Assembly: GCA_027028145.1 (NCBI GenBank)
Contig: JALVJV010000019.1
Location: forward strand, 62,001-126,000
Length of the DNA stretch: 64,000 bases
Direction of reading: 5' to 3'
From: Archaeoglobaceae archaeon
GTDB lineage: Archaea > Halobacteriota > Archaeoglobi > Archaeoglobales > Archaeoglobaceae
The position numbers and the translations under genes are program-made. Below, piece after piece: positions 1,133 to 35,547 of this stretch; positions within the stretch are counted from its first letter, which is position 1, and each line of letters begins with the position of its first letter. A model generated the notes under the pieces. That model saw nothing but the letters and a program-made list of their open reading frames with translations, was not told the DNA's origin and ran no database searches.

Positions 1133-1462
1133 CTACGATTTATCGGCTACCTCCATCATAGGATACCTTAGCCTTTCATCCCATCTCAGAACTGCCCTTA
1201 CAACATCATCTCCAACTTTTACCACGACTTCAGCCGAAAGCATCTCGGCATCGAGCGACGTGTATCCAAAAGCGGAGATCTTCTCCTTAAGCTTATCCCT
1301 GTCGATCCTAACCTTAGCATCGACAACGAATGGCTGAAGCTTTATACAACTCTCCATCGCTTTTTCGAGTATTTCGACGTTCTCGAAGCTAACGGGGACG
1401 CCTACGAACTGGTGAAAAAGAGCTCCAAGCTTTATTCCCGCTTCAAAATGGGCTTTGCTAAT
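1133..1462 (-). CDS. mptD: Archaeal dihydroneopterin aldolase (MptD), apparent ATT start
   Basis: Archaeal MptD family (DUF372), which converts 7,8-dihydroneopterin to 6-hydroxymethyl-dihydropterin in tetrahydromethanopterin-type pterin synthesis. The block FEAGIKLGALFHQFVG, followed by SCIKLQPFVVDAKVRID, is characteristic. A conventional start exists only at the ATG at 1357, which would delete the whole FEAGIKLGALFHQ region. The same frame continues upstream with no ATG, GTG or TTG. It meets GGGGGTGAG four bases before an ATT at 1460-1462, giving 109 residues, near the usual 115-120. I therefore take ATT as the start. The first 31 bases overlap the end of pssA, so it is probably the last gene of that operon. 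It ends in TAG. Confidence 0.75.
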   Translation of the reverse strand: MSKAHFEAGIKLGALFHQFVGVPVSFENVEILEKAMESCIKLQPFVVDAKVRIDRDKLKEKISAFGYTSLDAEMLSAEVVVKVGDDVVRAVLRWDERLRYPMMEVADKS

Positions 1463-2049
1463 GGTCTCACCCCCGGACTTAAGATGTATAACACCAGCAT
1501 CAGTAGCAGAACATACGTTGCGTAGATTACGAATGCATTTGCAACGATAACGATTCCGCAGGCAAGCATCAGAATCCTGTTTTTAACTCTCATATATTCA
1601 AGATCGCATATCATCAGAATGGATAGAATTATGGCTATAGCATCAAGGCACGGAAGCTTGAGGTTTATCCAGCACGATAGCGTGAGGGCTGAAGCTACGG
1701 TAGGAAGCCCGACGAAATCTTCTTTCGATAGAACGTTGAATCTCGCAAGCCTCAGAATACTTGCGATCAGATAAATAGCTCCGATCCATAGAAATCCGAA
1801 GTGATAGAGAATCAAAGAAGGGAAGGCTCCGAAGGATATCAGATCGGCTAAGGAATCGAGATCCTTCCCCAACTTGCTCTTCCCCAGCCTGTTCGCGATA
1901 AATCCGTCCATTCCATCCATCAAAGCTGAGAAGTAGAGGAATTTAAGGGATAAAACACCCCGAATGAGGTAGCATATTCCGAGGAAGCCCGATAATGCGT
2001 TCAAAATACTGAAGATGTCCGCCAAGCCAAGTTCTTTAAAGATTTTCAT
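1432..2049 (-). CDS. pssA: CDP-alcohol phosphatidyltransferase, archaetidylserine synthase type
   Basis: Membrane enzyme that would join serine to CDP-archaeol to make archaetidylserine. The CDP-alcohol phosphatidyltransferase motif is present as DGMDGFIANRLG, then GKDLDSLAD, around residues 45-72. The rest is hydrophobic, with about six membrane segments; 205 residues is normal. The start codon overlaps the stop of the decarboxylase gene by four bases (ATGA), indicating coupled translation. Its neighbours (decarboxylase and archaeosortase) point to serine rather than inositol or glycerol as the acceptor. Confidence 0.88.
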   Translation of the reverse strand: MKIFKELGLADIFSILNALSGFLGICYLIRGVLSLKFLYFSALMDGMDGFIANRLGKSKLGKDLDSLADLISFGAFPSLILYHFGFLWIGAIYLIASILRLARFNVLSKEDFVGLPTVASALTLSCWINLKLPCLDAIAIILSILMICDLEYMRVKNRILMLACGIVIVANAFVIYATYVLLLMLVLYILSPGVRPLAKPILKRE

Positions 2050-34081: not shown

Positions 34082-34357
34082 ATGGTGGAGTTGCCCGTTC
34101 ACAAGGATAAGAAGGTGATAGAATCCGGGGAGTTCGAGTTCGAAACTTACTTAAGCAAGGACGAGCTCGTAAAATTCCTCAGAAATCTGGCGGATCAGAT
34201 CGAAAAAGGTAATGAAATCGAAGTTTCTTCGGAGGACTGGGTGATAAGATTCGCATTCACCGAGCCGATAGAGGTCGAGATAGAATTCGACGCGGAAGCT
34301 AAAAAGCTCGAATTCGAAATAGAGTTCAAGCAGAGGTCCAAGATCGTAACGGGGTGA
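34082..34357 (+). CDS. Amphi-Trp domain protein
   Basis: Short acidic protein (91 residues) of the amphi-Trp domain family, recognised by FEFETYLSKDELVKFLRNLADQIEKG and EDWVIRFAF, followed by alternating charged and hydrophobic strands (VEIEFDAEAKKLEFEIEF). Function unknown. GGTTTATATAG 25-35 bases upstream of the ATG is a good TATA box, so this is the first gene of a run that includes the prenyltransferase-fold gene, crcB and DUF190. Confidence 0.8.
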   Translation: MVELPVHKDKKVIESGEFEFETYLSKDELVKFLRNLADQIEKGNEIEVSSEDWVIRFAFTEPIEVEIEFDAEAKKLEFEIEFKQRSKIVTG

Positions 34358-34363
34358 TTAATT

Positions 34364-35173
34364 ATAGACGTTGAAGGTTTGAAGAGATTCGTGCTTGAGA
34401 GGAGATCGGAAGACGGAGGATTCGCATTCTGCAATCCCCTACCCTCTTCGCTCCCGGAAACGTTTTACGCCGTTTACATTTTAAATGCCATAAACGTCGA
34501 TATCGAGGACGAAGATAAGCTCGTCGATTTTTTGCTGAAAAAGCTCAATCCGGACGTTTATTCAATTTTTTACGTTTACAACACCCTTTCGATTCTGAAC
34601 GAGGAACTGCCGGATTACTCGGAATTTCTGCTTGGAAGACTTAAGGAGGCTATGAAAAGGGAGAAACGATCCGATTTGGGACACGAACTCGGAATTACGG
34701 CCACATACTCCTTCGAGAATCCGAATATACTTAGGGAATTATACATGATAGTAACATCCCTGAAACTGTTGGGTTCGGATGTTTCGAAGGAAGTATACGA
34801 TTTCGTAACGCGGTTTAAGCGGAACGGCGGATACGGAATCGGAAGGGCTAACTTGAAGGACACTTTCTATGCAGTTTCGATTTTAAGGGATGAAAACGTA
34901 GTGGATTTCGTTCTAAAGCACGAATGCAAGGAAGGCGGATTCGCGAAACATCCCAAAGCGCATCCGCCGTATCTTGAAGACACTTTCTACGCAGTTTCGA
35001 TCCTAAACGCCGTGAATTACGGCTATAAAAACGAAAGAACGATTCGATATATAGAGAAGTTGCAAAATCCGGATGGAGGGTTTAGGAGGAGTATCTACGG
35101 CGGAATCTCTACTCTTGAGGATAGCTACTACGCGGTTGCAAGCTTGAAGCTTATGGGGGTGAAAATACGATAA
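34364..35173 (+). CDS. Prenyltransferase/squalene-cyclase repeat protein, apparent ATA start
   Basis: A protein of about 269 residues built of repeats seen in prenyltransferase beta subunits and terpene cyclases: SEDGGFAF, LPETFYAVYILNA, RNGGYGIG, LKDTFYAVSIL, LEDTFYAVSILNA, PDGGFRR and LEDSYYAVASLKL. No DxDD or zinc-ligand set is clear, so activity is uncertain. The first TTG (34379) lies 21 bases after the only ribosome binding site (GGGGTGA, 34351-34357). ATA at 34364 lies six bases after it and ATT at 34361 three, so a non-canonical start is likely. It is in the same frame as the upstream gene, separated by one TGA. Confidence 0.7.
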   Translation: MDVEGLKRFVLERRSEDGGFAFCNPLPSSLPETFYAVYILNAINVDIEDEDKLVDFLLKKLNPDVYSIFYVYNTLSILNEELPDYSEFLLGRLKEAMKREKRSDLGHELGITATYSFENPNILRELYMIVTSLKLLGSDVSKEVYDFVTRFKRNGGYGIGRANLKDTFYAVSILRDENVVDFVLKHECKEGGFAKHPKAHPPYLEDTFYAVSILNAVNYGYKNERTIRYIEKLQNPDGGFRRSIYGGISTLEDSYYAVASLKLMGVKIR

Positions 35174-35547
35174 ACATTCTGCTGATAGGTTTGGGAGGAT
35201 TCGTCGGTGCAATTTTGAGATACGTAGTGAGCGGTCTGGTTCAGGACGGCATAGTGACGTTTCCCATTGGAACCCTTGCAGTCAATACGATAGGCAGTTA
35301 CTTTCTGAGCCTTATCATGTATCTCTCGGAATACTACGGATTTTTCAACACCAATGCGAGGATATTCCTGACTATAGGTCTCTTGGGATCCTTCACGACG
35401 ATGTCCACGTTCAGCTACGAGTCCTTCAGGCTACTTGAGGAAAACAAAATGCTTTTATTTGCCTTAAACGTAATCGCTACCGTATCACTAACGCTGTTTG
35501 CAGTGTATCTGGGTAGGATAACGGCACTAACGGTATGGAGGCGTTGA
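35170..35547 (+). CDS. crcB: CrcB/Fluc fluoride channel, apparent ATA start
   Basis: Fluoride export channel with four membrane helices, recognised by GLGGFVGAILRYVVSG, FPIGTLAVNTIGSYFL and the central GLLGSFTTMSTFSYE. The first TTG (35191) would remove the beginning of helix 1. In the same frame an ATA at 35170, overlapping the upstream TAA as ATAA, lies seven bases after GGGGGTGA (35155-35162) and gives the usual N-terminus with NILLIGLGGFVG. I take ATA as the likely start (125 residues). The DUF190 gene follows, as often seen for this family. Confidence 0.8.
   Translation: MNILLIGLGGFVGAILRYVVSGLVQDGIVTFPIGTLAVNTIGSYFLSLIMYLSEYYGFFNTNARIFLTIGLLGSFTTMSTFSYESFRLLEENKMLLFALNVIATVSLTLFAVYLGRITALTVWRR

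Follow-up and report, generated by a model that had tools for sequence, protein, structure and literature searches.

The window (the whole 64,000-nucleotide stretch analysed) comes from a member of the Archaeoglobaceae whose genome, referred to here as G000, is a draft of 1.52 Mb in 24 contigs. It contains a predicted crcB gene whose start region overlaps the stop codon of the gene upstream. The features of this junction are as follows:

34351..34357, + strand: Shine-Dalgarno site GGGGTGA of the gene at 34364; conserved in G000 to G003, and containing the TGA stop of the preceding gene
34364..35173, + strand: gene for a prenyltransferase-like toroid repeat protein (PF00432), likely start ATA 34364-34366
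35155..35162, + strand: Shine-Dalgarno site GGGGGTGA of crcB, inside the 3' end of the upstream gene; read directly
35167..35169, + strand: ACG, the most likely crcB start
35167..35547, + strand: crcB, predicted Fluc-family fluoride channel, 126 residues with ACG as start
35170..35172, + strand: ATA, proposed as the start in an earlier note on this DNA and here taken as codon 2
35171..35173, + strand: TAA stop codon of the gene at 34364; overlaps the start region of crcB; read directly

Judged by profile matches, the crcB product is clearly a member of the CrcB/Fluc family over its length; fluoride transport is predicted by family only. It matches PF02537 in a family profile search (E 2.7e-25, profile positions 1-102 of 103) and scores 85.5 bits with TIGR00494, for which the cut-off is 80.45. 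Counted from the ATA codon at 35170, residue 4 is the first one in the family match. At the junction the upstream gene reads AAG CTT ATG GGG GTG AAA ATA CGA TAA, and crcB, which lies in the -1 frame relative to it, reads GGT GAA AAT ACG ATA AAC ATT CTG CTG ATA GGT TTG. The crcB frame stays open 5' of the start region, and its first ATG, GTG or TTG is the TTG at 35191. The earlier note had described GGGGGTGA at 35155-35162, the ATA seven bases after GGTGA and the overlap of this ATA with the upstream TAA as ATAA; all three are present in the letters of G000.

Four other genomes of the genus, separately assembled, also carry crcB. The Shine-Dalgarno sites and start regions of the five congeners are:

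G000: site GGGGGTGA; start region GGGGGTGAAAAT-ACG-ATA-AAC
G001: site GGGGGTAA; start region GGGGGTAAAAAT-ACG-ATA-AAT
G002: site GGAGGTGG; start region GGAGGTGGAAGA-ACG-CTG-AAT
G003: site GGGGGTGA; start region GGGGGTGAAAAT-ACG-ATA-AAC
G004: site GGGGGTGG; start region GGGGGTGGAAGA-ACG-CTC-AGC

There is no ATG, GTG or TTG at the aligned N-terminus of crcB in any of the five, in agreement with the view of the earlier note that crcB has no usable canonical start. Every congener has ACG at 35167. The codon at 35170 is ATA in G000, G001 and G003, CTG in G002 and CTC in G004, and is thus near-cognate, differing from AUG by one base, in four of the five. The overlap between this codon and the upstream stop takes the form ATAA in three species and CTGA in G002, and is missing from G004. 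A four-base overlap of the ATGA type, which the earlier note had treated as a property of the gene, is therefore not a conserved feature of crcB in the five congeners. The same note had tied unusual initiation to a strong Shine-Dalgarno sequence; the site need not be very strong, as G001 has the weakened GGGGGTAA. In more distant relatives crcB has canonical starts. These align with ACG 35167 in three genomes (ATG in G016 and G009, GTG in G024) and one codon 5' of it in G015, and the GTG of G005 and G017, both of genus g2, aligns with 35170.

The gene upstream of crcB also appears to begin at a near-cognate codon. Its start codon is ATA in G000, G001 and G002 and ATT in G003; G004 has ATG at the aligned position. 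In the window this gene (34358-35173, + strand) lies in the same frame as an amphi-Trp gene, directly after the TGA stop of the latter. Read-through of this TGA is a possible minor alternative for the gene at 34364 alone. As a general account read-through was rejected: G004 has a separate gene with its own ATG, and neither crcB nor mptD is in frame with the gene before it.

The mptD gene lies at the other end of the window:

1133..1462, - strand: mptD, dihydroneopterin aldolase family (PF04038, E 8.1e-41), likely start ATT 1462-1460
1467..1474, - strand: Shine-Dalgarno site GGGGGTGA of mptD, four bases before ATT; read directly

In G000, G001, G002 and G004 the mptD Shine-Dalgarno site is GGGGGTG[AG], and the start codon at spacing 4 is ATT in the first three and ATC in G004. 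None of these four genomes has a canonical codon near the mptD N-terminus; many relatives from other genera have an ATG within a few codons of the ATT site. mptD overlaps its upstream gene by 31 bases. Together with the gene at 34364, mptD favours the suggestion of the earlier note that this lineage tolerates AUA and AUU starts; the set of codons is apparently wider than that note had it, including ACG, AUC and perhaps CUG.

Further candidates are found outside the window. A permease gene on contig C9 of G000 (L058:68-1171) has ATA behind a strong Shine-Dalgarno site (GAGGTGAGGAGGT-ATA), followed by about 46 codons without a canonical start. Alignments with G001 and G003 begin at its first residue, and the open frames there are nearly equal to it in length. 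The first 18 residues of the C9 permease are encoded a second time by the final 54 bases of contig C11, which suggests that the two contigs may join there. In another genome of the family, G009, two adjacent genes in a minus strand block (C1 180001-200000, L131; the locus id is approximate) seemingly have near-cognate starts, one ATA after AAAGGAGGTGAGAAA and the other ACG after AGGGGTGAGAAA. A third G009 gene (C1:1067233-1068873, 547 residues) is without a nearby canonical start, and a TGA stop and a GAGGTGAT site immediately precede its ACG; from its sequence we take its product to be a glycogen-synthase-like glycosyltransferase. Comparison of 121 G000 genes with their congeners (221 start comparisons) gave no further clear near-cognate case.

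Substitution patterns indicate where crcB coding begins. Among the five species, the codons from 35170 to 35190 differ 19, 4 and 42 times at codon positions 1, 2 and 3 respectively, and the preceding 21 bases differ 17, 16 and 10 times (one base was padded in the G004 row, which leaves the result unaltered). The latter pattern is expected where only the frame of the upstream gene is translated, so the crcB frame appears to be translated from about 35167-35172. A start at the TTG (35191 in G000), with a shorter first helix, has the attraction of being the first codon acceptable to standard gene finders. It is nevertheless highly improbable: the codon is TTT in G003, the seven codons that precede it show the substitution pattern of protein-coding sequence, it has no Shine-Dalgarno site at proper spacing, and it would cut helix 1 of the family, as the earlier note had also argued. 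Of the two codons that remain, ACG is the better candidate because it is conserved in all five congeners, lies at the modal spacing and aligns with the ATG or GTG of relatives. In a sample of 100 canonical G000 genes with a strong Shine-Dalgarno site, spacings of 3, 4, 5, 6 and 7 bases after GGTGA occur in 5, 45, 11, 18 and 9 genes; measured from GGTG[A/G], ACG 35167 lies at 4 bases and ATA 35170 at 7. The crcB site is complementary to the 3' end of 16S rRNA and, with ACG, stands at the spacing of canonical genes, the site being weaker in G001. We therefore favour, at a probability of roughly 0.6, the reading that crcB starts at ACG 35167, a near-cognate codon placed by the Shine-Dalgarno site. 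Conservation of this ACG should be read with some caution, since its letters overlie an arginine codon (CGA or CGC) of the upstream gene, which may account for part of it. Arginine codons in the G000 sample are AGA or AGG in 90% of cases and CGN is rare, at about 10%. Of 22 comparable sites with CGN, 6 keep it in G002 as well as in G004; the constraint was set aside as a decisive test of ACG, being weak evidence only. A start at ATA 35170 (CTG in G002), reached by termination-reinitiation across the four-base overlap, was the proposal of the earlier note. AUA is near-cognate, as is the CTG of G002, the codon overlaps the stop in four of five species much as in ATGA pairs, ATA is apparently the start of the gene at 34364, and two g2 relatives have a GTG at this position. 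Against these points stand the CTC of G004, the rarity of spacing 7 and the three relatives whose canonical starts align with 35167. With ATA in three of five congeners, the note probably named the wrong codon, and the ATA start is rather unlikely.

Two other explanations would dispense with a near-cognate start altogether. A -1 frameshift on ATGGGGGTG in the upstream gene would give a fusion protein with no separate crcB start. crcB does lie in the -1 frame, GGGGGT is found in four of five species, and mptD has the same phase at its own GGGGGT; however, G002 has GGAGGT, which is not slippery, and relatives carry a normal crcB start. The gene at 34364 is in frame with its upstream gene and cannot arise in this way, and the sites of the G009 examples are varied and without such runs. 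Frameshifting is thus an improbable source of CrcB. A sequencing error or a pseudogene might be considered given that G000 is a draft in 24 contigs, but this is barely credible. The canonical start is missing from five separately assembled genomes, which for practical purposes excludes an error in sequencing, and the reading frame is intact, with dN 0.13 and dS 0.90 between G000 and G004.

The frequency of candidate near-cognate starts was estimated from a 774-kb sample of G000 and 400-kb samples of each of four further genomes: G009, G014, G005 and the outgroup G029. Genes were called by dicodon score, and a gene was counted if coding signal was present 5' of its first canonical codon and if a Shine-Dalgarno match was followed, at a spacing of 3-6 bases, by a near-cognate codon; 500 permuted Shine-Dalgarno motifs served as the null. 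G009 shows a clear excess and G000 a moderate one; two other genera show none. The G000 sample contains four such genes against a mean of 0.75 for permuted motifs, five of the 500 permutations reaching four, in support of the wider claim of the earlier note; the thresholds had been fixed with the first candidates already in view, and the figure is weaker for it. G009 was chosen as a control before its count was known. It has six genes in 400 kb (permuted mean 0.62; none of 500 permutations reach six): three with ACG, at spacings of 4, 5 and 6, and one each with ATA, ATT and CTG. G014 has none and G005 has one in the 400 kb sampled from each. The outgroup has two (permuted mean 0.43; 30 of 500 reach two). 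Varied thresholds gave the same picture.

A mechanism can be proposed for the ACG start of crcB. The 3' end of G000 16S rRNA is GGATCACCTCCT, which pairs with the Shine-Dalgarno motif. By pairing with GGGGGUGA at the 3' end of the upstream gene, the 30S subunit would bring ACG (35167-35169) into its P site, so that position rather than codon identity selects the start. Ordinary initiator Met-tRNA (anticodon CAU) would then start at ACG, near-cognate pairing sufficing for initiation at a low rate. The overlap between the crcB start and the upstream stop suggests that initiation is for the most part coupled to translation of the upstream gene. ACG rather than ATA as the start, coupling, and insertion of methionine are all inferred from sequence. 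The same mode may operate in a small set of genes of the genus, with mptD starting at AUU or AUC and the gene at 34364 at AUA or AUU, and, it seems, in one or more further genomes of the Archaeoglobaceae.

The initiator tRNA of G000 (L050:3665-3739) is normal, with A1, a GC-rich anticodon stem and the anticodon CAU, and the other two CAU tRNAs also look ordinary, in about half of the genome. A changed initiator tRNA was rejected on these grounds, over the same half of the genome; no altered anticodon accounts for the near-cognate starts. A match to the whole aIF1 profile (PF01253) is present in G000 and in almost every relative. In archaea this factor acts against initiation at non-canonical codons, and it is the one expected to resist near-cognate starts (PMC6237735). 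Candidate starts lie between -31 and +10 bases from the upstream stop in seven of nine cases, and at +101 and +157 in the other two; six of nine candidates with a listed upstream gene start within 14 bases of its stop. Most are therefore close to a stop and two are distant, and coupling probably helps but is not required. In a Haloferax gene pair, coupling is lost at a distance of 22 bases (PMC10666635).

Tentatively, and with somewhat less than an even chance of being right, near-cognate starts (ACG, AUU, AUA, AUC and CUG) may be stably inherited in about 0.5-1.5% of the genes of some Archaeoglobaceae, held in place by Shine-Dalgarno position. They would have persisted across several speciation events, possibly because weak initiation fixes the dosage of coupled genes. 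If this is true, ACG is a natural archaeal start codon, and ACG, AUU and AUA starts conserved across species would show that Shine-Dalgarno position can override codon identity in some archaea. Such genes would form a natural test set for the roles of aIF1 and aIF2 in start selection. By our own reasoning, they would also be truncated or lost in annotation, because gene finders normally accept only AUG, GUG and UUG.

Near-cognate starts are already known in bacteria and eukaryotes; what is predicted here is a conserved archaeal set. Near-cognate starts are listed in NCBI code table 11, from whose start list ACG is absent, and bacterial infC has a rare AUU start. As proposed here for crcB, infC has a conserved near-cognate start behind a Shine-Dalgarno site; it is a single autoregulated gene, whereas the candidates here are several unrelated genes of one archaeal lineage. 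An ATT start in E. coli has about 0.3% of the efficiency of ATG (quoted in PMC10666635). The sigR gene of Streptomyces has a conserved non-canonical GTC start in a translationally coupled pair, and its expression is kept low (PMC5472188). The likeness to crcB lies in a conserved non-canonical start within a coupled pair; sigR differs in that it is bacterial, uses GTC and is repressed by IF3. Archaea have aIF1 and its relatives in place of IF3. The only starts named in a review of archaeal initiation are AUG, GUG and UUG (PMC7531240), and the literature searched, the coverage of which is incomplete, yielded no account of ACG or AUU as conserved archaeal starts. In the overlapping gene pairs of Haloferax, as in crcB, the downstream start overlaps or abuts the upstream stop; those pairs have canonical starts, however, and rare non-canonical ones such as ATT are merely allowed for (PMC10666635). 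Yeast initiates at the near-cognate codons ACG, AUU and UUG (PMC6898956). The set of codons used in eukaryotes is similar to that proposed here, and archaea share eukaryote-like aIF1, aIF1A and aIF2; eukaryotes find their starts by long-range scanning, whereas the archaeal candidates would be positioned by a Shine-Dalgarno site.
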